Shown piece after piece: positions 50,543 to 64,000 of a stretch of 64,000 nt of DNA; the stretch's first letter is position 1, and each line of letters opens with the position of its first letter. The DNA comes from an uncultured Bacillota bacterium (lineage in GTDB: Bacteria; Bacillota_I; Bacilli_A; RFN20; CAG-826). The notes below the pieces were generated by a model. It did not search any database. It was not told the origin of the DNA and was given only the letters and a program-made list of their open reading frames with translations. The stretch spans positions 1 to 64,000 of the forward strand of contig CASFVT010000016.1 in the NCBI GenBank assembly GCA_949298195.1. Reading direction: 5' to 3'. The position numbers and the translations under genes were made by a program.

Positions 50543-51520
50543 ATGGAAGAAACGGACAAGGAAGCGGTAGGCGGGGAAGTCTCACTCGCCTACAAGGACA
50601 AAAAGGAGTGGCTAAAAGCCACGGTCCTCGGCTTTTTCATCGGCCTCGCGGTCATCGTTCCCGGCGTCTCGGGATCGGCCGTGGCCATCATGATGAAGCT
50701 CTATGAGCGGCTCCTCCACGCCATGTCCTCGCTTCTCAAGAGCTTCAAGACCGCCTTCCTCTTCCTCCTACCGATCCTCATCGGGGCGGTGGTGGGCTTC
50801 GGGCTCGGCTTCCTGGCCGTCAAAGCCCTTCTCGAGTTGATCCCGTTTGCCATCATCCTCTTCTTCGGTGGCCTCATGCTCGGGGCCTACCCGTCGATTT
50901 ACGATGAATGGAAGGGTGACGGGCACACTCCCTGGCGGGTCGTTCTCTTCGTTTTTGGCATCCTCGTTCCCCTCGCCATGGCCCTCCTTTCGAGTTTCTT
51001 CCGGGAAGGGAGCCTCGACCTAGGCAACCTTTCTTGGTACCACTATGTGCTCTACCTTTTCCTCGGCTTCCTCATGGCCATCACCCAACTCGTCCCCGGC
51101 CTTTCGGCGACGGCCCTCCTCATGGCCGTCGGGACATATACCCCCCTCATGGATTCGGTGAGTCTCACCTATTGGGGGGAAAATCCCATGGTCTTCCTCG
51201 TCTACGGTTGCCTCGCGGTCGGTTTCCTCCTCGGCCTCTTCCTCGTTTCCAAGGCCATCGGTTACCTCCTCAAGCGGTGGAGGGCGGCCGCCTTCCACCT
51301 CATCGGGGGGCTTTCCCTCGGCTCGATCGCCGCGATGCTCCTTTCCCCGGAAACCTTCGAGGTCTATTTCTCCTGGTCGAAGGAAGGAATCGACGGTCTC
51401 GACCTCGGTCTCGGAATCGGGCTCTTCTTCCTCGGGACCGTCCTCTCCTTCCTCCTTTACCGCTTCGAGAAAAGGAAGGGAGAGGGTAGCGGCGCGATGG
51501 GCGGGACGCCGGCCTCCTGA
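50543..51520 (+). CDS. DUF368 membrane protein (PopT-type undecaprenyl-phosphate translocase)
   Basis: 325 residues with 8-9 membrane helices and the two internally repeated motifs VIVPGVSGSAVAIMM and QLVPGLSATALLMAVGTY. DUF368 proteins (PopT) and DedA proteins (UptA) have been shown to recycle the lipid carrier undecaprenyl phosphate across the membrane for wall polymer synthesis. That function is assigned by family. The start has little leader and only a weak ribosome site. Confidence 0.9.
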   Translation: MEETDKEAVGGEVSLAYKDKKEWLKATVLGFFIGLAVIVPGVSGSAVAIMMKLYERLLHAMSSLLKSFKTAFLFLLPILIGAVVGFGLGFLAVKALLELIPFAIILFFGGLMLGAYPSIYDEWKGDGHTPWRVVLFVFGILVPLAMALLSSFFREGSLDLGNLSWYHYVLYLFLGFLMAITQLVPGLSATALLMAVGTYTPLMDSVSLTYWGENPMVFLVYGCLAVGFLLGLFLVSKAIGYLLKRWRAAAFHLIGGLSLGSIAAMLLSPETFEVYFSWSKEGIDGLDLGLGIGLFFLGTVLSFLLYRFEKRKGEGSGAMGGTPAS

Positions 51521-51615: not shown

Positions 51616-54588
51616 GTGAACTTCTTATCGACTTTCGCCCGCCTGGCAGAAAAAGGCGTGGCCCATCGGGGCCTCCATGGCCCCTTGGCTTTCCAGAACT
51701 CCCCCCTCGCCTTCCGCTTGGCCCTCGAATGGGGCTATCCCTTCGAAACCGACGTCCACCTGAGCAAAGACGGGGAACTCTTCCTCATCCACGATCACGA
51801 CTTGATCTACCAAACCGGTGAGCCGGGGATCATCGAGGAACTCGCTTCCGAGGAAATCGCGTCTTACTCACTCCCCGACGGGACGAAGATCATGAGACTC
51901 GGGGAGCTTCTTGAGATGATCCACGGGCGGGTTCCCATCGTCCTCGAGCTCAAGGCCTACCAAGGGAACGGGAAAGCCCTCGCCGCGGCAGTCGAATCCG
52001 CTATCCGGGGTTATGGAGGCGAGCTCCTCATCATCTCCTTCAACGAGGAGGCCCTCTTCGCCTTCCCGCGGGAAAAAGCCCCGCGGGGGCTTCTCATCGG
52101 GGGCGACGAACTCCGGTACTTGGACGAGGGGAAGATGGGCAAATGCGACTTCCTCGACGTCGCCTATCCTCTCCTCGACGACCCAAAAATACTTTCCTAC
52201 CGGAAAAGAGGTGGGAAGGTCCTCTCCTGGACGATCCGCGATGAGCTTTCCCTTGAGAAGGCCTCGGCCTTGAGCGACGCGGTGACCTTCGAGGGCTTCC
52301 GTCCCTTTGGGCCTGACCAGAGGAAGGTGGAAGGGTTCTATCTCCAATCCATCGAGAAGACGATGAACGGTTCCCTCCTTTATCTTCATGACCTCCCGGA
52401 AGAGGCCGCCTTCCTCGAGGTGGCCGGAGCCAGCGAATACCAGCTCTTCCTCAACGGGAAGTTCCTCCTTTACGGGCCCGAACGCGGGGCCAAGGGCCGT
52501 TTCTACGTCGATGAGGCGCTCCTACCCCCGGCCCCGAAGAGGAGATTGGCCGTCCTTTTGACCGGGAGCAACGCGAAAGGCTACGAACGGGTCAACGAGC
52601 CGCCGTTCCTCTTCCTTCGCCTTTACGGTCGGAAGGGAGAACTCCTGAAGACACTCGAAGAGGGCGAAACCGCCTACCGGAGTCCCTTCCGCCTCGAGAA
52701 GGTGGCCCGCTTTTCCTACCAACGGGCCTTCTCGGAAGCTTATCGCTTTGATTACGCGAAGCACCGGGCAATGAAAACCCCGGGCCTCCCCTTCGAAGGG
52801 GAAGGGGAGAAACTTTCCCCGACCGGTTGCTTCGAGCTCAATGAACGGAGGACCCATTGCCCCCGTTACGAAAAATCCGAGGGTCATCCGCTTGAAGGCG
52901 GAACTTATGTTCTCGACGAAAGTCTACCGGTCTACGACGACCGTTCGATGCACGCTCCCTTCCTCGGGATGTACGAGAAGAAGGAGTGGGAAGTCGCTCC
53001 GTCGGACTATCTTTCCAAATGCGTCTTCGAGGCCGGGGAACTCTCCTATTCCTTGACCAAGGGCCGCTTCCTCACCTATGACCTCGGGGCGAGTCAGACC
53101 GGCTTCCCCGTCCTCCGTCTCAAAGTGAATGCGCCCAGCCGCTTCATTCTCGCCTTCGACGAGGTCGATACCTCCCGCCGCGGGGTCACCGTCGGGATCG
53201 ATTTCAAGCGGAACGGGACGATGAACCTCCTATATTACGAGTTGACCCCGGGAACGTATGAGCTGACCGGCTTCCTCCCCGTTTCGGGACGCTACTTCCG
53301 CCTCCTCCTCGTCGATGGCTGGATCGAGGCCTCCCCTGGCTCCTTCTCCCTCATCCGCCTTGAGAATCCCGATTACGCCCGGCTTTCCTACCGGGTGATG
53401 GACGCGGAACTCCAATCCATACTGGAGGCCGCGGTCTCCTCCTTCCGTCAGGATGCGGTCGACCTCCTCATGGACTGCCCCTCCCGGGAGCGGGCCGGTT
53501 GGCTCTGCGACACCTACTTCACCGGGCGGGCCGAGGCCCTCATCACCGGGGAGAACGTAGTTGAGAAGGCCTTCCTCGACAACTTCGCCCATTACGTCAA
53601 CCTCGGCGACCAACCGCCGAAGATGATCCCGATGTGCCATCCGAGCGACTATGGGGATCAAGGCTACATCCCCAATTGGCCGATGTTCTACGTCCTCGAG
53701 CTTTTCGAGGCGTACAAAAGGAACCATCGGACGGTCGATCTTTCCTCGCCATTGTCCCGCATCGACGATTTCCTCTCCTGGTGCGAGGGGTTCGAGGACG
53801 AGGACGGCTTCCTCGAGGACCTCGACGGGGTCGTCTTCGTCGAGTGGAGCCACGCGAATGACCTCGAAAGCACGAGGGGGGTCAATTTCCCGACCAACAT
53901 GCTTTATTCGCGGATGTTGGAGGCCCTGGCCAGTCTCTATCCCGACCGTTACGCCCACTTGAAGGGAAAGGTCGCCCGCCTCGAAAAAGCCATCAAGGGG
54001 CTCGGCTACGACGGGCAGTGGTGGAACGACAACGCGAAGCGGGGGGAGGACGGTAGGCTCCACCTGACCGGTCGGATCAGCGAGGTCGCTCAATACTATG
54101 CCCTCCACTTCGGATACGTTCCCGACGACGGGTTCAAGAAGCGCGTCCATTCCCTTCTTGGGCCTAGACGCGATCCGAGCGTCAAGGAAGACCGCGTCTT
54201 CCCGGCCAACATGTTCATCGGCTACTACCTCCGCCTCTCTTCCCTGCTTGCCGACGGGGAATACGCGAAGGTCATCGAGGAATGCCGCCTCTATTTCGGG
54301 AAGATGGCCCTGTATACCGGGACCCTCTGGGAATACGATTCCTTCTATGCCTCCCTCACCCATGGCTTCACCTCCTTCGCGGTCAACTTGATCGTCGAAT
54401 CCCTCACCGGCATTTCCTTCATAAGCGAGGGCAAGAAGGAAGTCCGCCGCGGCAAGGGGAAGAGGGTAGAGATTGACTGCTCCTTCTCCCTCCCCCTCGA
54501 AGGCGGGCGGAAATTCATCTACTTCGCAAGAAAAGGAGGGGAAGAATCGCTCCTTCTCCCTCCCGATTACCGCTTGGTCGAGGATTAG
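51616..54588 (+). CDS. Fusion of glycerophosphodiester phosphodiesterase and GH78-like rhamnosidase domain, cytoplasmic
   Basis: 990 residues. Residues 1 to about 235 form a GDPD TIM barrel: His17-Arg18 (AHRGLHG), Glu44 and Asp46 (ETDVH), His59 (IHDHDL) and a late Glu in VLELKAY; these are the catalytic and metal residues of the family. From about 250 on the protein follows the GH78 layout: two beta domains and an (alpha/alpha)6 barrel with DCPSRERAGWLCD starting at Asp620. No signal peptide. The GTG at 51616 lies 8 bases after CTGGAGG; a longer in-frame reading from 51556 was rejected. The pair of activities suggests hydrolysis of a glycerophospho-glycan. It overlaps the convergent GDPD lipoprotein by 4 bases. 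Confidence 0.88.
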   Translation: MNFLSTFARLAEKGVAHRGLHGPLAFQNSPLAFRLALEWGYPFETDVHLSKDGELFLIHDHDLIYQTGEPGIIEELASEEIASYSLPDGTKIMRLGELLEMIHGRVPIVLELKAYQGNGKALAAAVESAIRGYGGELLIISFNEEALFAFPREKAPRGLLIGGDELRYLDEGKMGKCDFLDVAYPLLDDPKILSYRKRGGKVLSWTIRDELSLEKASALSDAVTFEGFRPFGPDQRKVEGFYLQSIEKTMNGSLLYLHDLPEEAAFLEVAGASEYQLFLNGKFLLYGPERGAKGRFYVDEALLPPAPKRRLAVLLTGSNAKGYERVNEPPFLFLRLYGRKGELLKTLEEGETAYRSPFRLEKVARFSYQRAFSEAYRFDYAKHRAMKTPGLPFEGEGEKLSPTGCFELNERRTHCPRYEKSEGHPLEGGTYVLDESLPVYDDRSMHAPFLGMYEKKEWEVAPSDYLSKCVFEAGELSYSLTKGRFLTYDLGASQTGFPVLRLKVNAPSRFILAFDEVDTSRRGVTVGIDFKRNGTMNLLYYELTPGTYELTGFLPVSGRYFRLLLVDGWIEASPGSFSLIRLENPDYARLSYRVMDAELQSILEAAVSSFRQDAVDLLMDCPSRERAGWLCDTYFTGRAEALITGENVVEKAFLDNFAHYVNLGDQPPKMIPMCHPSDYGDQGYIPNWPMFYVLELFEAYKRNHRTVDLSSPLSRIDDFLSWCEGFEDEDGFLEDLDGVVFVEWSHANDLESTRGVNFPTNMLYSRMLEALASLYPDRYAHLKGKVARLEKAIKGLGYDGQWWNDNAKRGEDGRLHLTGRISEVAQYYALHFGYVPDDGFKKRVHSLLGPRRDPSVKEDRVFPANMFIGYYLRLSSLLADGEYAKVIEECRLYFGKMALYTGTLWEYDSFYASLTHGFTSFAVNLIVESLTGISFISEGKKEVRRGKGKRVEIDCSFSLPLEGGRKFIYFARKGGEESLLLPPDYRLVED

Positions 54589-56477
54589 GCGCCGTAAACA
54601 TCATCCACGAAGGAGTCGGGGAGGACGATCCCCGACTTCTTTTCATGGACAGGGGCGAAGTCCGGGTCGGCCCCGAGGGAACCGTTCCCGACGATGACCT
54701 CGGGGCTATAAAGACCGTGGCCGAGCGCGGCGTCGTAGTAGTAGAAGGTACCGTGTAGGTATTGATCGGTGGCCGTGTCGCCCTCCAAGAGGATGAACTC
54801 GGCCGGGACGCTTACGCTGGCATGGCCATACGTCTCGGCGGTCGTGGCCGTCAGGCCATCGAGGCCGTCGACGTTCTCGAGATAGATGTACTTCGCCGGC
54901 GTCAGCTCGGCAATCACGTCCTTCGATTTCTCGGCCACGTCGGTCGTCACGATGTTGCTGGCGTTTTTGAAATTGCTCTGGTCTTTGTAGGTGTAGCTAT
55001 TGATCGGATACCCCCTGGCGAGGAAATCGTAGGCGTTGCCAAAGAGGGTGCCACTCATCGAGTAATCGCACCCCCACTGGTATTTCCGGAAGTAGTCGAT
55101 TGCCCCTTCCGGGTCCTCGGGCCCGACGTATTCGAAATTGTAGTCGGGGCCGTATCCGATGCTGGCAAGCGGCATCCAGGGGCTGTGTTCACGGGCCCCT
55201 TCGATGAAGGGAGGGAAGTAGGAAATGCCGAGGACTTGCTTTTCCATACCGGTTTTGCGGACGATTTCCTCCACGTAGCGCATCGGATCCTTGCCTAGGA
55301 CCCTCTCACTGCACCAGTCCATCTTGAGCTCGAGCATGTAGACGAGGGGGGATCCCTTCCCGGCGAGGAGGGCTTCTTCAAGGGTCGGGACGGTGTTCCC
55401 TTCGTCGACCCCGTTGTCGTCGAGTCGGTAATGCTTGATGTCGTCCCAGTTCTCGCTTATGAAGCGGGTACTGATGCCCGGGCACTCGGACGAGAAATAG
55501 GCCGGGCTATCGTCGTGGCAGACGACTACCACGTTGTCCTTGGTGATTTGGAGGTCGATTTCCACGTGGGTGGCCCCGGCATCGTAGGCATCGGCGATGG
55601 CCGGCAGGGAGTTCTGGTTGTAGACCCCGGCAGTCGTCAGTCCCCGGTGGGCGGAAAGGAACTGCTTCCGGGTCCGTCCCGCCTTGGAGAATTTGCCCAA
55701 AAGGGAATCCATGGCCTGCAAATCGCCGCTCACGATGCCATAAGCCCCGGAGCAGACGGCCCTTGGGAGCTCGCCGTCCTCGGCCATCACCCAAGTGTTC
55801 TTGAAACGGGCATTCAGGTATTCCACGGCCGCCTCGAGGCTTTGATTGTCGGCATCCAGGATGATCGTGTCGGCCCCGGCCGCCGTCGCGGCCGCCTCGA
55901 GGAGGTAATAATCTTCATCGTTTTCCAATTTGGCCGCCCTTGCGTCGAAAGCCAAGGAGAAAAGCTTGGCGAATTCGTCGTTTCCGGCCGCGAGAAGCAC
56001 TTCGAGGTCGTCGGAGACGATGTAGGAATCGTTGACCGCGAGCGATTTCCGGATGCTCAAGAGGTAGGCGTGGAGGGCCTCTTTCGCCTCCAGGTAGACC
56101 GCCGGGATGCTCGGATGGCCGTTGAGGCAGTCCAGGTAAACGGCGTTCCACGTCCCGAGTTTCTCTCCGCCAGCCCCCATCACATTGAGACCATCGTCGA
56201 GACGAAGGAGGGTCACCGTCGTCTTCTTGGCGGCCTCCTTCAAAGCCGTGAGGTCTTCGGAAGAGGAAGGTGCATAGACGCGGATGGGCTCATTGAGGAG
56301 CTGGTTGCCGATTGGCGTGACGTCCGCGAATGTGTCGACAATCAAGCCCGTTTGCTCGTTTGGCAGTTCCTCCAAGGAGGATTCCGAGACGCTCGAAGAG
56401 GCGGTGGTTGGCCCGCAGGAAGCGAGGACCAAGAGGATGGCGGAAGGCAAAAGTACCGATGTTCGTGGCTTTTTCAT
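54585..56477 (-). CDS. Secreted lipoprotein with a glycerophosphodiester phosphodiesterase domain
   Basis: 630 residues. Signal with lipobox VLASC (Cys21), then a Ser/Glu-rich linker, an alpha/beta N-terminal domain of about 230 residues that I do not recognise, and a GDPD domain beginning SAHRGLTTAG (His277) with HVEIDLQITKDN and CHDD. It should act at the cell surface on glycerophosphodiesters such as lipid head groups or glycerol-phosphate-modified glycans. It is read towards the cytoplasmic GDPD-GH78 fusion and lies behind the DeoR gene, whose transcript could continue into it. Confidence 0.88.
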   Translation of the reverse strand: MKKPRTSVLLPSAILLVLASCGPTTASSSVSESSLEELPNEQTGLIVDTFADVTPIGNQLLNEPIRVYAPSSSEDLTALKEAAKKTTVTLLRLDDGLNVMGAGGEKLGTWNAVYLDCLNGHPSIPAVYLEAKEALHAYLLSIRKSLAVNDSYIVSDDLEVLLAAGNDEFAKLFSLAFDARAAKLENDEDYYLLEAAATAAGADTIILDADNQSLEAAVEYLNARFKNTWVMAEDGELPRAVCSGAYGIVSGDLQAMDSLLGKFSKAGRTRKQFLSAHRGLTTAGVYNQNSLPAIADAYDAGATHVEIDLQITKDNVVVVCHDDSPAYFSSECPGISTRFISENWDDIKHYRLDDNGVDEGNTVPTLEEALLAGKGSPLVYMLELKMDWCSERVLGKDPMRYVEEIVRKTGMEKQVLGISYFPPFIEGAREHSPWMPLASIGYGPDYNFEYVGPEDPEGAIDYFRKYQWGCDYSMSGTLFGNAYDFLARGYPINSYTYKDQSNFKNASNIVTTDVAEKSKDVIAELTPAKYIYLENVDGLDGLTATTAETYGHASVSVPAEFILLEGDTATDQYLHGTFYYYDAALGHGLYSPEVIVGNGSLGADPDFAPVHEKKSGIVLPDSFVDDVYGA

Positions 56478-56626: not shown

Positions 56627-57391
56627 TCAAGAGGCAATCACCAGTTGGACGTTGTGGCGCCGGAAGGCCTCTTTGTAGTCTTCGCTTGGCTCCTGGTCGG
56701 TAACGAGGACGTCGAGGTCCGACACCCGGCAATCAGAGGCCAATAAGCCTCGATCGAACTTCGTGTGGTCGATCATGGCGATGAGGCGCTTGGAACGTCT
56801 GGCCATTGCCGATTTGACTCGTTGCTGCTCGACGGTTCCTTCGCTCGGACCGGTTTCTAGCGAAAAGCCACGGCAGGAGAAAATGAAGGTGTCGACCGTG
56901 AAATTGCTCACAAAGGCCACGGTATCCGGGCCAATCGAGGACCCGACGTTGAAGGCAATGATGCCCGGGGCCATGTAGGATGAGAAATTGGCGCAGTTGG
57001 ACAGGGCCGCGGCATTGTCGAAGCCATTGGTGATGATGGTGATGTCCGAGAAGTTCTTGAGAAGCGGTATGAGCTGGGCAACCGTCGTGGAGGAATCGAA
57101 GAAATAGCTCTCCCCTTCGTGGAGGAACTGAAGGGCGGCCTGGGCCATCTTCTTCTTTTCGGCGATGTTGCTTTGGCGCCTGATGATGGAAGACACCTCG
57201 CCAGTCGTCGGCGGAAGGGCCGAGGCACCTCCCCGAACCCTCTTTATGAGGCCGGCGTTCGCCAGGTCGGCCAGGTCACGGCGTATCGTCGCCGGGGAGG
57301 CAAAGACCATTTTTGCCAGCTCGTCCACCGACACATACGTTTTGCCCTTGGTAATCTCCAGGATTTCCGTTTTTCGTTCGTCAATGAGCAT
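56627..57391 (-). CDS. DeoR-family sugar-responsive transcription regulator
   Basis: 254 residues: N-terminal DeoR helix-turn-helix (DERKTEILEITKGKTYVSV, then SPATIRRDLADLANAGLIKR) and the C-terminal sugar-phosphate-sensing fold (FFDSSTTVAQLIPLL, TNGFDNAAAL, CRGFSLETG, MIDHTKFDRG). Such regulators respond to phosphorylated sugars or to glycerol phosphate (GlpR), which would fit the neighbouring GDPD enzymes. Divergent from the SGNH-importer operon and upstream of the GDPD lipoprotein; probably controls both and itself. Confidence 0.93.
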   Translation of the reverse strand: MLIDERKTEILEITKGKTYVSVDELAKMVFASPATIRRDLADLANAGLIKRVRGGASALPPTTGEVSSIIRRQSNIAEKKKMAQAALQFLHEGESYFFDSSTTVAQLIPLLKNFSDITIITNGFDNAAALSNCANFSSYMAPGIIAFNVGSSIGPDTVAFVSNFTVDTFIFSCRGFSLETGPSEGTVEQQRVKSAMARRSKRLIAMIDHTKFDRGLLASDCRVSDLDVLVTDQEPSEDYKEAFRRHNVQLVIAS

Positions 57392-57521: not shown

Positions 57522-58832
57522 ATGTCATTTCAGTGCAAAAGCAATTCGATGAAGGGAAAAGCGGCGGTGGGCCTCGCCCTAGCCACGTTTGCCCTCAGCG
57601 GTTGCGGTCCGACAGGGGTGGGTTCATCTTCCAGCATCCCCGTTTCTGAAGAACCGTCTTCTTCCTCGGGAGAGGTGTTCGAATCGCTCGACCCCGAGAA
57701 GATGCCCAACTACGTCGAGGACCTCGATTCGTTTGAATACGATTACGAGACCAATCCGAAAGCCGTCACCGATCCTTTCTTCGACGGAAACATCATCTAC
57801 AACGAAACGGTCATGCTTAGGACCCAGGAAGACGGGACCGGGCTTGGGTATCTTCGCTTCGAACCGACGAAGATAATCTCGGTCCGCGACTACACCCTCA
57901 AGAACGTCTTTGCCGAGGGAACCGATTACGTGATCGACGGCAATTCGATTGCCGCCCCGGCCGGTAGCAAAATTGGGCATTGGACCGACAAGCAGATGCA
58001 TGGGGAAGAGGACATCCCGGCCCCTTACGTCAAGACCAACGGAATCAAAAACACCCTCACCGACTACATGTTGATGAGCTCGACGGTCTACACCGAGTCG
58101 CCGTTTTATTACGGCACACAGGTGTACGTGACGTATGCCTACGATGTCTCAGAGGTCAACGCGGCCGAACTGCCCAAGAGCCAAATCGCCTCCCTTCCGA
58201 ACCTCAAGGCCAAGTTGGAGGCGAAAAGCGGTTCGCTCAAGGTAGTCGGGATCGGCGATAGCGTCATCGAGGGCTGTTCCTCGTCCGAGAAATTCAACCA
58301 CGAACCTTACCAGGCTCCTTTCTTCGACCTCTTCACCGAGGCAATCGAACGCGATTACGGCCTTGACGTGACCGGGGAGAACATGGCGGTCGGGGGAACC
58401 ACCTCCTCCAACGGAGCCCAGGATGCGCTTCTCGCTCGGGTCGTCAATCAAAACCCTGATCTCGTTTTGGTCCACTATGGCATCAACGACTTACCGACCA
58501 CCTCGCCGAACAAATTCAAAGACAACATCGAATACATCGTCCTCTACTTGAAGAGCCATCTCCCGAACGTGGAAATCATCCTCATGTCCCCGATTTCCCC
58601 CAATAACCGGAGTTACGACATCTTCCGGCTCGAGGACTATCGGAGCCGGATGGACTACTTCGTCGAGAAAAACGACGGGGTCATCTTCCTCGACATGACC
58701 GCCTATTCCAATTTCATGCTCGAGGGCGGTCGTGACTACTACGACATGACCGGCAACGGCATCAACCATCCCAACGACTATGGGCACCGCCTTTACACCG
58801 GGGCCCTCCTCGCCACCATCAAGACTGCTTAA
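57522..58832 (+). CDS. Secreted SGNH/GDSL-family esterase lipoprotein
   Basis: 436 residues. Lipobox ALSGC with Cys28; an in-frame ATG at residue 10 is the alternative start, but only the first has the ribosome site GGAGG. After a Ser-rich linker and an N-terminal beta domain comes the SGNH hydrolase: GIGDSVIEG (Ser247, block I), ENMAVGGTT (block II), YGINDL (block III) and HPNDYG (block V with His and Asp). Likely removes acyl groups (acetyl) from a glycan at the cell surface so that glycosidases can work. First gene of the operon with the ABC importer. Confidence 0.88.
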   Translation: MSFQCKSNSMKGKAAVGLALATFALSGCGPTGVGSSSSIPVSEEPSSSSGEVFESLDPEKMPNYVEDLDSFEYDYETNPKAVTDPFFDGNIIYNETVMLRTQEDGTGLGYLRFEPTKIISVRDYTLKNVFAEGTDYVIDGNSIAAPAGSKIGHWTDKQMHGEEDIPAPYVKTNGIKNTLTDYMLMSSTVYTESPFYYGTQVYVTYAYDVSEVNAAELPKSQIASLPNLKAKLEAKSGSLKVVGIGDSVIEGCSSSEKFNHEPYQAPFFDLFTEAIERDYGLDVTGENMAVGGTTSSNGAQDALLARVVNQNPDLVLVHYGINDLPTTSPNKFKDNIEYIVLYLKSHLPNVEIILMSPISPNNRSYDIFRLEDYRSRMDYFVEKNDGVIFLDMTAYSNFMLEGGRDYYDMTGNGINHPNDYGHRLYTGALLATIKTA

Positions 58833-58847
58833 TCAAGGAGGTCATTC

Positions 58848-60227
58848 ATGAAAAGCAAGCACACCATCATCCTCGGAGGGCTCTTAACGGCCATTGCCCT
58901 CACCGGCTGTGTCATCGAAAAGCCTGGGGAAAGCGGGCAATCATCGTTTGTCGAGCAGGAAATAGAGATCGGCATCCCGGCCGACTACGATGGCTCCATC
59001 GGGATCCTCATCCCCTCCGGCAACGAAAACGAGCAGACGATGATCGACGCGGCCATCGAGGCTTTCAAGCTCAAGTATCCGAAAGTCAACATCTCGACGA
59101 CCTTCGTCACGATCAGCACCTATGAATCGCAGGTGCGGCAAATGCACATGGCCGAGAGACTTCCCGACATCGTGTGGACCAATTCCCAGGAAGTCTACTT
59201 CCTCCGCTCCCTCAATGTCATCGAGCCGCTCAACAATTACATCAACGCCTCCGAGGCGCGCGGCGATTACGACTTCGAGGCCGACTTCAAGACCGAGTTC
59301 TTCGACATGGCTGGCGATGGGGATCTCTACTATGCCGTTCCCCGGAGCGCCGACACGGTCGTTACCTTCTACAACAAGAAACTCCTGAGCGACGCCGGCA
59401 TTTCGATGGACAAAATCAAAAACGGCTGGACTTGGGACGATTTCCTGAGCATCTGCGCCCAGTGGCGGACCCACGCCGATGCCCTCGGCCACGCCGAGGA
59501 CTGGTTCTGCGCGGACTTCAACATGAGTTGGTCGTCCGTCTACTACCCCTTCATGCGGAGCTACGGCGCCGACATTTTCCAAGCCGAGAATACCATCGGG
59601 GTCGATACCCAGGCCATGCGTGACGCCCTCGCCGCCATGCGCGATCTGGCCGACAAGCGTTATTGCGTCGGGGCGGGGGTGACTTCCGGTTCCTCCTTCG
59701 AATCGGCAACCTGCCCGTTCATCTTCCAGTCGGCGGCCATTTCCCACTATGACAACATGCGCGCCCTCAAGGGCAACATCGACATCGTCACCTTCCCGAT
59801 CATCAACGGGGAGCAGGGGAAAATCGGTGCTGGCATTGCCGGGTATTCCCTCACCTCGGCTTCCAAGGAGAAGCTCCTTTCCTGGGAATTCCTGAACTTC
59901 CTCATGTCCTATGACGGGCAACAGGCCCTTGCCAGCGGCGGCCTCAACCTCCCGTCCATCCGTAATGACCTTGCCGATCCCGACAATACCGATGCCAACT
60001 GGACGAAAGGCTACACCGACCGCAACCTCGAGGCCTACGTCCTCTACGACGAACGCAAGATCGCCGACGAGTACTATTCCTACATCGACCCGTCCGCGAT
60101 GGCCGACGTTACCCTCGCCATCGGCGACGTCGTCGGTGACACCCTTTCGACGAGCAGCAACCGCCCGACCATCGACAAGATCATCGAAAACGCCATCGAA
60201 GACCTCGAATACGCCATCAACGACTGA
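58848..60227 (+). CDS. ABC sugar importer, substrate-binding lipoprotein
   Basis: 459 residues of the family 1 extracellular solute-binding type. Lipobox ALTGC with Cys21. PADYDGSIGILIPSGNENEQ leads into the first lobe; PDIVWTNSQEVYFL and GWTWDDFLSICAQW are typical of the MalE/oligosaccharide group. The binding cleft is rich in Trp and Tyr, suggesting an oligosaccharide. No ATPase gene is in the operon, so a shared MsmX-type ATPase elsewhere is needed. Confidence 0.93.
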   Translation: MKSKHTIILGGLLTAIALTGCVIEKPGESGQSSFVEQEIEIGIPADYDGSIGILIPSGNENEQTMIDAAIEAFKLKYPKVNISTTFVTISTYESQVRQMHMAERLPDIVWTNSQEVYFLRSLNVIEPLNNYINASEARGDYDFEADFKTEFFDMAGDGDLYYAVPRSADTVVTFYNKKLLSDAGISMDKIKNGWTWDDFLSICAQWRTHADALGHAEDWFCADFNMSWSSVYYPFMRSYGADIFQAENTIGVDTQAMRDALAAMRDLADKRYCVGAGVTSGSSFESATCPFIFQSAAISHYDNMRALKGNIDIVTFPIINGEQGKIGAGIAGYSLTSASKEKLLSWEFLNFLMSYDGQQALASGGLNLPSIRNDLADPDNTDANWTKGYTDRNLEAYVLYDERKIADEYYSYIDPSAMADVTLAIGDVVGDTLSTSSNRPTIDKIIENAIEDLEYAIND

Positions 60228-60269: not shown

Positions 60270-61277
60270 ATGGAACCGACAGCAACGGGCAACGAGAAGA
60301 AACCCTTTCTCGTTGCCTTGAAAGAGAAAGCGTCTTCTCTTTTACCGAAGAAAAAAGACGTTGGGGACCCGAATTTCAAGCGCCCCAAGATAAAGATGAG
60401 CGCTTCGAGGAAGAAGGAAACCATCGCCGGTTGGGTTTGCTGTTCTCCCCTCATCATCGGCTTGGCGCTATTCACGGCCATCCCGATGTTCTGCTCGCTC
60501 ATCTGGAGCTTCTTCTGGTATGACGGCTTCAATATGTCCCCGGCCGGCTTCGGGAACTTCGTCCATGCCTTCACGGACGCCCAGGTAGGGACGGCCGCCC
60601 TCAACACCCTCATCTACGCCTGCGTGAACATCCCCCTGAACCTCGTTCTCAGCTACTTCCTGGCCCTTTTGGTCAACAACAGCCACAAGTTCACCCGGGT
60701 GTTCCGCGTCCTCTTCTATTTGCCGGTCGTCATCCCGGCCGTCGTCTCCGGCCTTCTTTGGAAGGATCTCTTCGACAACACCTATGGCATCTTCAACAAG
60801 ATCCTGACTTCACTCGGGCTCGACAAGTTCCCGTTCTTCATGGATCCGAAGACCGCCATGTTCTCTCTCATCTTCATGGGATTATGGGGAATCGGCGGTG
60901 GCATGATCCTCTGGCTTTCGGCCTTCAAGAACATCCCCAAGGATCTCTACGAGTCGGCCAAGGTCGACGGGGCCAACGCCTTCCAGCGGTTCTGCCACAT
61001 CACCATACCGATGTCGACCCCGATCATCTTCTTCAACCTCGTCACCTCGGTCATCGGCTCGCTCCAGTACAACGGAACCCTCATCTTCGCCCCGCGTGAC
61101 GGGCGCGGATACGAGGATTCCCTCCTCCTTTACGGGGTCAAGATCTACTGGGAAGCCATCAGGGTCGGGGACATTGGCTATGCTAGCGCCCTCTCGTGGC
61201 TGCTCTGCATCGTCATTTCACTGCTCACCTTTGTCTTGTTCAAGACATCGAAGTGGGTCTTCTACGGAGGCGAGTGA
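60270..61277 (+). CDS. ABC sugar importer permease, MalF/UgpA type
   Basis: 335 residues with six membrane helices after a basic cytoplasmic N-terminus of about 50 residues. The EAA loop that contacts the ATPase is SAKVDGANAFQRFCHITIP. It follows the binding-protein gene by 42 bases and is 2 bases from the second permease. Confidence 0.93.
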   Translation: MEPTATGNEKKPFLVALKEKASSLLPKKKDVGDPNFKRPKIKMSASRKKETIAGWVCCSPLIIGLALFTAIPMFCSLIWSFFWYDGFNMSPAGFGNFVHAFTDAQVGTAALNTLIYACVNIPLNLVLSYFLALLVNNSHKFTRVFRVLFYLPVVIPAVVSGLLWKDLFDNTYGIFNKILTSLGLDKFPFFMDPKTAMFSLIFMGLWGIGGGMILWLSAFKNIPKDLYESAKVDGANAFQRFCHITIPMSTPIIFFNLVTSVIGSLQYNGTLIFAPRDGRGYEDSLLLYGVKIYWEAIRVGDIGYASALSWLLCIVISLLTFVLFKTSKWVFYGGE

Positions 61278-61279
61278 GA

Positions 61280-62203
61280 ATGAACTACCAGACACTCAAA
61301 GACCGCCTCACCGGGGATGCCTTCAAGAGCAACCGGACGGCCCGTGCATGGGATTTCACGAAGACCAGCGCCCTCTTCCTCGGGATGTGCTTGGTGGCCC
61401 TCGTCCTCATGTTCCCGTACATCTTCATGGTGTTCAAGTCGCTCATGTCGGAGGCGGAGATCCTCGATCCGAATCCCCATTTCTTCCCGAATTGGTCAGA
61501 TTTGCAGTGGAACAACTTCGTCACCCTCTTCACCGATGCGAGTTCCGGCTACAACTATGCGGTCGCCCTCGGGAACACCTTGCTCATCATCCTCTTCAAC
61601 ATCATTGCCATTCCCCTTTCGGCCACCCTCATCGCCTACAGTTTCTCGAAACTCAGGTGGAAGGGCCGCAACGTCGTCTTCGCCATCATGATGCTGACGA
61701 TGACCCTTCCGGGCGTCGTTACCCAGATTCCCCTCTACGTCATCTACTCGAAGGTCGGCTGGCTCAACACCTTGATGCCGTTCACCATCCCGAACCTCTT
61801 CGGGGGCGGCGCGATGTACATCTTCCTCATCCGCCAGTACATGTTCGGCATCCCCAACGAACTATGCGACGCGGCGAAGATCGATGGCTGCGGCCCCTTC
61901 CGCATCTATTGGTCGATCATCCTCCCCAACTGCAAGTCGATCATCATCTACATCATCATCTCCGTCTTCAATTCCTATTGGGGCGACTACTACGGCCCGC
62001 TCCTTTACATGCCGTCCACCGATGCCCCCTACACGTTCGCCTATGCGATTTTCAAGAGCACGGTCGAGGGCATGGCGGCCACCCAATGGGCGGCGGTCAG
62101 GATGGCCGGTGGCGTCTTCATGACCCTCTTCCCGACGATCCTCTTCATCGTCTTCCAAGAGCAACTTACCGACGGAGCCCTCACCAGCGGCATCAAAGGA
62201 TAA
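61280..62203 (+). CDS. ABC sugar importer permease, MalG/UgpE type
   Basis: 307 residues from ATG 61280, with six helices and the EAA loop CDAAKIDGCGPFRIYWSIIL. The start follows GGAGGCGAG (61266-61274); a longer reading from 61196 lies inside the other permease. Together the two form the heterodimeric channel. Confidence 0.93.
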   Translation: MNYQTLKDRLTGDAFKSNRTARAWDFTKTSALFLGMCLVALVLMFPYIFMVFKSLMSEAEILDPNPHFFPNWSDLQWNNFVTLFTDASSGYNYAVALGNTLLIILFNIIAIPLSATLIAYSFSKLRWKGRNVVFAIMMLTMTLPGVVTQIPLYVIYSKVGWLNTLMPFTIPNLFGGGAMYIFLIRQYMFGIPNELCDAAKIDGCGPFRIYWSIILPNCKSIIIYIIISVFNSYWGDYYGPLLYMPSTDAPYTFAYAIFKSTVEGMAATQWAAVRMAGGVFMTLFPTILFIVFQEQLTDGALTSGIKG

Positions 62204-62207
62204 AGCC

Positions 62208-64000
62208 ATGAAAGCCAAAAGGACCATCATTCCAAGCGTCGTTCTCCTCGCCACCTGTTTACTGGCTTCCTGCAACGAGGCCAACCGGCCAAGCCATGAG
62301 CGCATCGAGGACAACCGTTCGCTCACCGACGAACAGTTCACCGTCAATTCACTTGCGGCAACCGATGCCTTCGGCCGTTCCTTTTCCTCGGTCTCCATGG
62401 CCAACCCCGAGAAGGAAACCGGGATGTTCTATTCCCTTTGGCACGGTAGCCACGAATCGGGCATCTACGACGTCACGGAACTGAAGGAAACGAATCCGAC
62501 CGCCCTCTGGGACGTGACTTCGGGAACGGGCCTACCGACGGCCAGCCCCCTTGGCCAATACCATTATTTCGGCCGTCCCCTCTATGGCTATTACGACAGC
62601 CGCGACCCCTGGGTATTGGCCCGGCACTGCGAGCTCTTCACGATGGCCGGCATCGACTATCTCGTCTTCGACACGACCAATAGCGTCATCTACACGGACG
62701 TGGTAAGCGCCCTCATCGAGGTTTGGCGGAAGTTCGCCGCCCAGGGCTTCGAAGTCCCGAAGCTGGCCTTCTACACGAATTCCCATAGCCAAATCACCGT
62801 CAATTCCCTTTACGGCATCTGGTTCCAGGACGACTCCTACGACGATGTCTGGTACATGGTCGACGGCAAGCCGATGCTCGTTACCCGGAAGGAAGACTTC
62901 ACCGACCTCGAGCGGCTCGCCCTCTACGAGGAGCGCTTCACCCTGAAGTCGAGCCAATGGCCCGACGAGCGGATGCAGCGCGATGCCTTCCCCTGGATGA
63001 ACTGGGATTGGCCGCAGTTCAACCACAACGGCACGATGTCCGTCTCGATTGCCCAGATGCCTGGCTACAACGCGGCCAATCAGGAAGAAAGCAACTACGG
63101 CCGGGGATACACCCGGGCGACCGAAGGCTATGAGTGGGGCGAGCAAAACCTCGACGAATACGAGAAGGGTCTCAACTTCGAAGAGGAGTGGCGGACTGTC
63201 TTCGACGAGGAGCTCAACGAGGGCAAGGAAGTCAATAATGTCTTCATCACCCAGTGGAATGAGTGGATGGCCATCAAGAACCGGGCCAACAACGGCGACA
63301 TGCAGATGGTCGACGGCTTCGACCTCATTTACAGCCGCGATGCCGAGATGACCGATAGCGAAACCGGATATGGCGATGGATTCTACCTGCAAATCGCCCG
63401 TAATCTCCGCAATTTCGCCTATGAGGACGGGGAGCATTATCTTCTTGACCACCAAAGCATTTCCATCGGGACCGACGATCCGAAGTGGAACGAGGTCGAA
63501 TACACTTACCGCGATTTCGAGGGCGATGCCCAGTTCCGGAATTTCGAGAACGCGGCCACGGCCGGTTCCCCCGGTTACGAGGTTTATAGCGACCTCACTG
63601 CCCGCAACGACATCGTCAACACCAAGATCGCCCACGACAACGACAACATCTACGTTCGGGTCGAGACCTCGGCCGACATCATCGCGAGTTCCGGCGACGA
63701 GAGCTGGATGAACCTTTTCATCGGCAACCCCGATTTGGAAGAGAGGTCGGCTTATGCCGACAACTTCGACTTCCGGATCGTCCCTAACGGAAGCGGGACG
63801 CTCGACGTCTTGACTTACGACGCCGAGACGAATGAATGGGTCAAAAAGGAAAGCGCCGGTGCCTATGTTTATGCGGGCGATGTCATCGAATACCGCATCC
63901 CCCGCGGTTCGCTCGGCCTCGCCGGCGGCGATCCGCACCTCCTCTTGAAAGTGACCGACCACTTGGTTGACCCGACCGACGTCGACGATTTCTACGTGAG
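62208..64000 (+). CDS. Secreted GH71/GH99-like lipoprotein (cut by the right edge)
   Basis: Starts at ATG 62208 after AAAGGA and stays open to the edge (597 residues). Lipobox LLASC with Cys22. YHYFGRPLYGYYDSRDPW, MAGIDYLVFDTTNS and FITQWNEWMA resemble the (beta/alpha)8 domain of GH71/GH99/WbsX-type proteins, which include endo-alpha-mannanases and alpha-1,3-glucanases. The part beyond residue about 430 looks like a carbohydrate-binding beta domain (DNDNIYVRVETSADI). It probably cuts a surface glycan whose fragments the adjacent importer takes up. Assignment to one family is not certain. Confidence 0.75.
   Translation, partial: MKAKRTIIPSVVLLATCLLASCNEANRPSHERIEDNRSLTDEQFTVNSLAATDAFGRSFSSVSMANPEKETGMFYSLWHGSHESGIYDVTELKETNPTALWDVTSGTGLPTASPLGQYHYFGRPLYGYYDSRDPWVLARHCELFTMAGIDYLVFDTTNSVIYTDVVSALIEVWRKFAAQGFEVPKLAFYTNSHSQITVNSLYGIWFQDDSYDDVWYMVDGKPMLVTRKEDFTDLERLALYEERFTLKSSQWPDERMQRDAFPWMNWDWPQFNHNGTMSVSIAQMPGYNAANQEESNYGRGYTRATEGYEWGEQNLDEYEKGLNFEEEWRTVFDEELNEGKEVNNVFITQWNEWMAIKNRANNGDMQMVDGFDLIYSRDAEMTDSETGYGDGFYLQIARNLRNFAYEDGEHYLLDHQSISIGTDDPKWNEVEYTYRDFEGDAQFRNFENAATAGSPGYEVYSDLTARNDIVNTKIAHDNDNIYVRVETSADIIASSGDESWMNLFIGNPDLEERSAYADNFDFRIVPNGSGTLDVLTYDAETNEWVKKESAGAYVYAGDVIEYRIPRGSLGLAGGDPHLLLKVTDHLVDPTDVDDFYV

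Follow-up and report, generated by a model that had tools for sequence, protein, structure and literature searches.

A glycerophosphodiesterase fused to a GH78-like rhamnosidase domain in a rhamnose-utilisation locus of an uncultured Bacillota bacterium

Why would one bacterial protein join a glycerophosphodiesterase (GDPD) to a GH78-like glycoside hydrolase, and what substrate would call for both? This question is raised by a gene in a 64,000-nucleotide stretch of DNA from an uncultured Bacillota bacterium, hereafter the window (Table 1). Translation of the gene gives 990 residues with zero internal stops, in agreement with the frame, length and coordinates of a preliminary description made from the sequence, and no stop or frameshift separates two genes near residues 235-260. 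A GGAGG ribosome-binding-like site (CTGGAGGTATTCGACGTG) lies upstream of GTG 51616 and alignment places this codon at the position of the ATG starts in three relatives, making an alternative start at TTG 51556 (a 1010 aa frame) less likely. Four species of a single genus carry the fusion intact; the other three encode the same unbroken protein at 992-993 aa and 66% identity. Given its occurrence in these three other MAGs, we rejected an assembly or frameshift artefact, and their contig names (NODE, k127, idba) indicate different assemblies, which further argues against an assembly origin. A promoter and terminator scan returned fewer matches than in shuffled sequence.

Table 1. Features of the fusion gene and its locus (positions in the window unless stated otherwise)
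Feature	Coordinates	Strand	Evidence and remarks
GDPD–GH78-like fusion gene	51616..54588	+	990 aa, GTG start, no export signal
GDPD domain, residues 17-232	51664..52311	+	PF03009, fold match; H17, R18, E44, D46, H59, E111
N-terminal beta domains of GH78-like part, residues 235-595	52318..53400	+	no Pfam match; predicted fold aligns to 2okx
Six-hairpin barrel, residues 596 to about 916	53401..54363	+	PF17389; D620, E625, D632, E906, H916
Secreted GDPD lipoprotein	54585..56477	-	630 aa, GDPD at residues 277-447, lipobox LASC
DeoR/GlpR-type regulator	56627..57391	-	PF00455 3.4e-38, PF08220 7.3e-14
GDSL hydrolase lipoprotein	57522..58832	+	PF13472 7.5e-19, lipobox LSGC
Sugar ABC importer, substrate-binding lipoprotein	58848..60227	+	PF01547 6.9e-26, lipobox LTGC
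ABC permease 1	60270..61277	+	PF00528 1.5e-12; best NCBIfam UgpA, far below cut-off
ABC permease 2, true start probably inside frame	61196..62203	+	PF00528 1.1e-14; best NCBIfam UgpE, far below cut-off
Secreted GH99/GH71-like lipoprotein, runs past window	62208..64000	+	predicted fold
Locus past window, same contig	L048 = G000:C16:57000-76587		second GH99-like lipoprotein, Big_2 surface protein, canonical GH78, RhaA, RhaD, RhaB

Both halves of the protein belong to recognised families. Domain searches recovered PF03009 at residues 17-212 (9.6e-11, 42.7 bits versus a Pfam gathering cut-off of 23.6) and PF17389 (Bac_rhamnosid6H) at residues 596-846 (5.8e-11, 42.7 bits versus 24.5). A structure predicted from 35 aligned sequences is confident (mean pLDDT 89.8, pTM 0.85), with low confidence confined to the catalytic loop at residues 617-628, and places a GDPD fold and a rhamnosidase fold in one protein. 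In the N-terminal half, residues 1-233 of the model adopt a TIM-barrel GDPD fold resembling 3qvq (Z 27.8, 226 residues, rmsd 2.2). The active site named in the preliminary description (H17, R18, E44, D46 and H59) is present at those positions together with a third metal ligand, E111, in the motif ELK, and all six residues are identical in 27/27 aligned GDPDs, suggesting that this half would be a catalytic phosphodiesterase. In a tree, the fused GDPD clusters with cytosolic stand-alone GDPDs (support 0.964), apart from secreted GDPDs, and these cytosolic relatives sit in unrelated gene neighbourhoods. We rejected orthology with UgpQ since the equivalog model PRK09454 scores 46 bits against a cut-off of 264.

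The remainder of the model, residues 235-990, aligns with the GH78 enzyme BsRhaB (2okx; Z 37.6, rmsd 3.2, 718 residues) and contains an (alpha/alpha)6 barrel with GH78 layout; the structure matches ranked after 2okx are rhamnosidases too. The motif DCPSRER lies exactly at 620-626 as the preliminary description had it, and its proposal of a GH78-type barrel is borne out by domain, structure and conservation. Residues D620, E625, D632, E906 and H916 are invariant in an alignment of 14 relatives, the first four correspond to BsRhaB D567, E572, D579 and E841, and the 2okx motifs DCPSYEQVFWVGD and CWEM line up with the barrel active-site residues. With residue roles at these four positions taken from Klebsiella and Streptomyces rhamnosidases (PMC4690510), the catalytic acid E625, the base E906 and the rhamnose-binding aspartic acid D632 are present by alignment, the acid sitting in the low-confidence loop of the model. 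D632, E906, W629 and H916 are counterparts of rhamnose-binding or catalytic residues in solved GH78 enzymes. The accessory GH78 models PF08531, PF05592 and PF17390 gave no Pfam match, yet the predicted fold aligns across those domains, and accessory GH78 domains are not universal, KoRha having two domains only (PMC4690510). By homology, the barrel would be an alpha-L-rhamnosidase.

How firmly rhamnose can be named as the sugar depends on the wider GH78-like subfamily. Members also occur in loci without Rha genes, one of them with a sulfoquinovose-isomerase-like gene, so some of the subfamily may act on a sugar other than rhamnose. Within the subfamily, the barrels of Rha loci make up one clade (support 1.000), which favours rhamnose here without proving it. 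In genome G256 (L129:11268-15963), an unfused barrel relative lies beside the sulfoquinovose-isomerase-like gene, an FGGY kinase and a class II aldolase, a neighbourhood that suggests the subfamily serves further sugars. Four fragments in different frames at L129:16015-18077 resemble the GH78-like protein and are probably a broken paralogue.

The two active sites are unchanged in 4/4 fusions, and structure together with these conserved sites rules out a chance domain match. In the closest pair of fusions, pN/pS is 0.15 for the GDPD part and 0.10 for the GH78 part, indicating purifying selection on both halves, and therefore neither is a decaying passenger. These results confirm the fusion as a real, conserved domain combination. 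Its distribution is narrow: a search of 279 genomes sampled from the order recovered the fusion from these four and from none of the remaining 275, and no further one appeared in 395 genomes drawn from the class. We also surveyed 392 sampled genomes of the phylum for fusions of GDPD to glycoside hydrolases, considering matches with strong E-values, a level below which the four-species fusions themselves score; among the matches listed, three GDPD frames exceed 700 aa, and these pair GDPD with a laminin-G-like domain (PF06439) and no hydrolase barrel. The preliminary description knew of no enzyme with GDPD ahead of GH78, and we found none in the literature, where searches combining the names of the two enzymes with rhamnose polysaccharides or with utilisation loci returned no match. 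As far as we searched, the domain combination is undescribed, built from two known families.

The genes around the fusion strongly support a locus that uses rhamnose. Past the window it encodes L-rhamnose isomerase (RhaA), rhamnulose-1-phosphate aldolase (RhaD), rhamnulokinase (RhaB) and a canonical GH78 enzyme in which Pfam recognises three GH78 domains. The gene order is repeated in the three other fusion genomes, with RhaD absent from the listing for G035, where it was probably suppressed by an overlap filter, and RhaA, RhaD, rhamnulokinase and canonical GH78 also occur together in G028. In G035, a gene upstream of the fusion encodes lactaldehyde reductase, the enzyme that usually acts next in rhamnose breakdown, and in the genome under study a homologue is present as two pieces at contig ends (86-90% identical). 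Tail to tail with the fusion gene lies the gene for a secreted GDPD lipoprotein; by eye, about 250 residues ahead of its GDPD domain resemble a decayed GDPD-like barrel. A DUF368/PopT gene at 50543-51520 was not counted in the system because the other three genomes do not have it next to the fusion.

Two paralogous secreted lipoproteins (62208-64000, continuing to L048:5209-8953) have no significant Pfam or NCBIfam match. The one that was modelled resembles the GH99 endo-alpha-mannosidase 4acy (Z 18.3, 265 residues, rmsd 4.2); the model adds a beta domain at its C-terminus, and WNEW is a conserved motif. Of 279 genomes of the order, 12 encode relatives, in most cases within this same locus, and the proteins possibly represent an unnamed glycoside hydrolase family. 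As L-rhamnose is 6-deoxy-L-mannose, endo-action of a GH99-like enzyme on rhamnan would be reasonable.

Related loci bear on how the two GDPDs came together. In two genomes (G014 and G028) the same locus lacks a secreted GDPD, and the gene immediately next to the regulator is a GH78-like one that is not fused. A search of 224 genomes of the family recovered full-length relatives of the secreted GDPD (53-58% identity) from the other three fusion genomes alone. At this locus, a secreted GDPD therefore accompanies the fused one; the pair may stem from one evolutionary event, so we count their co-occurrence as a single observation. The rhamnose locus of G175, from another genus, has a different GDPD protein beside a different GH78: at L118:5000-7486, an 828 aa protein with laminin-G-like and GDPD domains adjoins a canonical GH78 at the locus end. 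In the rhamnose loci of G017 and G175, a lipoprotein of about 407-423 aa occupies the same place (L115:7578-8849 and L117:10976-12199) and is missing from fusion genomes; its G175 copy has a weak match to acetyl xylan esterase.

What, then, would the fusion do? It has no signal peptide and no lipobox, whereas its locus partners have lipoboxes, and the protein is therefore probably cytoplasmic and would act after import. In the scheme we propose, secreted lipoproteins (the two GH99-like putative endo-glycosidases, the GDSL esterase and the secreted GDPD) would trim a rhamnose-rich polymer outside the cell, and the ABC transporter would bring the fragments in. The GDPD domain of the fusion would strip remaining glycerol-phosphate groups, a decoration that we infer from the GDPD domains alone, and the GH78-like barrel would cut terminal alpha-L-rhamnosides, probably by an inverting acid/base mechanism with E625 as acid and E906 as base. 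Freed rhamnose would pass to RhaA, RhaB and RhaD; the order of these steps is likewise put forward provisionally. We give a probability of roughly one half to the reading of the fusion as a bifunctional cytoplasmic enzyme that finishes imported glycerol-phosphate-bearing rhamno-oligosaccharides in a rhamnose-glycan utilisation locus. The canonical GH78 already present in the locus besides the fusion's barrel counts against it.

That second GH78 opens the door to a different division of labour, in which the canonical enzyme, with its three GH78 Pfam domains, frees rhamnose and the fusion's barrel cleaves another sugar of the same polymer, for example one in a glycerol-phosphate side chain. Detection of the barrel domain only, with no accessory GH78 Pfam models, and the barrel relatives in loci without Rha genes are consistent with this, as is the placement of glycerol-phosphate on glucose side chains in Streptococcus mutans (PMC11754754). 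We nonetheless consider it doubtful, as the barrel keeps counterparts of rhamnose-binding and catalytic residues and belongs to the supported clade of Rha-locus barrels. The two activities might instead serve separate substrates, the GDPD salvaging glycerophosphodiesters of teichoic acid or lipid for glycerol-3-phosphate and the fusion merely joining the enzymes of one regulon. The affinity of the fused GDPD for cytosolic enzymes from unrelated neighbourhoods fits such a role, and secreted GDPD lipoproteins related to that of the locus are also encoded in other ABC-transporter loci that have no Rha genes. Against this, general salvage is already provided for by a further stand-alone GDPD in each fusion genome, and the fused copy shares its rhamnose locus with a secreted GDPD; a division between two substrates is in our view an unlikely explanation.

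Glycoside hydrolase accessory domains are often binding or stabilising modules, and a non-catalytic GDPD half of this kind would have a parallel in a solved multidomain beta-1,3(4)-glucanase (7ww4, 7wwc) with an N-terminal GDPD-like fold. Retention of all six catalytic and metal positions in the four fusions and the low pN/pS of the GDPD half make this very improbable.

If the bifunctional reading holds, the locus suggests a bacterium that feeds on glycerol-phosphate-decorated rhamnose polymers. The preliminary description had named such chemistry, as in streptococcal wall polysaccharides: its rhamnose part is supported by genes that it did not cite, those for RhaA, RhaD, rhamnulokinase and canonical GH78, glycerol-phosphate receives indirect support from the two GDPDs, and the streptococcal link is unproven. 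GlpQ-type enzymes are restricted to sn-glycero-3-phosphoryl groups (PMC7086022), and a decoration with sn-glycerol-1-phosphate would therefore need a different stereospecificity or another natural polymer, a stereochemical problem for the streptococcal link. More tentatively, the fusion could be the intracellular terminal step, taking glycerol-phosphate and rhamnose off the same oligosaccharide, by which the bacterium eats the decorated rhamnan of other Gram-positives, with a GH99-like outer endo-rhamnanase, a pathway for which we know of no earlier description. Glycerol-phosphate on streptococcal rhamnose polysaccharides was itself missed for decades (PMC11754754), and our literature search found no paper on consumption of glycerol-phosphate-decorated rhamnose polysaccharides by other microbes. 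If the proposal is true, the locus would offer a defined enzyme set of two secreted putative endo-enzymes, two GDPDs and two rhamnosidase-like enzymes, and with it tools for taking glycerol-phosphate and rhamnose off such polymers for structural work.

Each part of the fusion has a counterpart among known systems. BsRhaB from Bacillus sp. GL1 shares the fold over residues 235-990, the barrel and the equivalents of its D567, E572, D579 and E841, but has about 16% identity to the fusion and is without a GDPD domain; in nature it acts on a rhamnoside derived from gellan. UgpQ (PRK09454; 2otd, from Shigella) is the best sequence match of the N-terminal half, with the same fold (Z 26.6) and the same active-site residues, and is, unlike the fusion, a single-domain cytosolic GDPD. 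The beta-1,3(4)-glucanase 7ww4/7wwc also has a GDPD-like fold ahead of a glycoside hydrolase (Z 25) but is described as a glucanase, whereas the hydrolase of the fusion is rhamnosidase-like. GlpQ of Bacillus subtilis (5t9b) has the fold (Z 24.4) and conserved catalytic residues of the fusion's GDPD in a single-domain protein that acts on poly-glycerol-phosphate wall teichoic acid (PMC7086022). Among polymers, the streptococcal GAC and SCC are glycerol-phosphate-decorated rhamnose polysaccharides, the kind of substrate needing both activities (PMC12282279, PMC11754754), although they carry their glycerol-phosphate on GlcNAc or glucose side chains and not on rhamnose.
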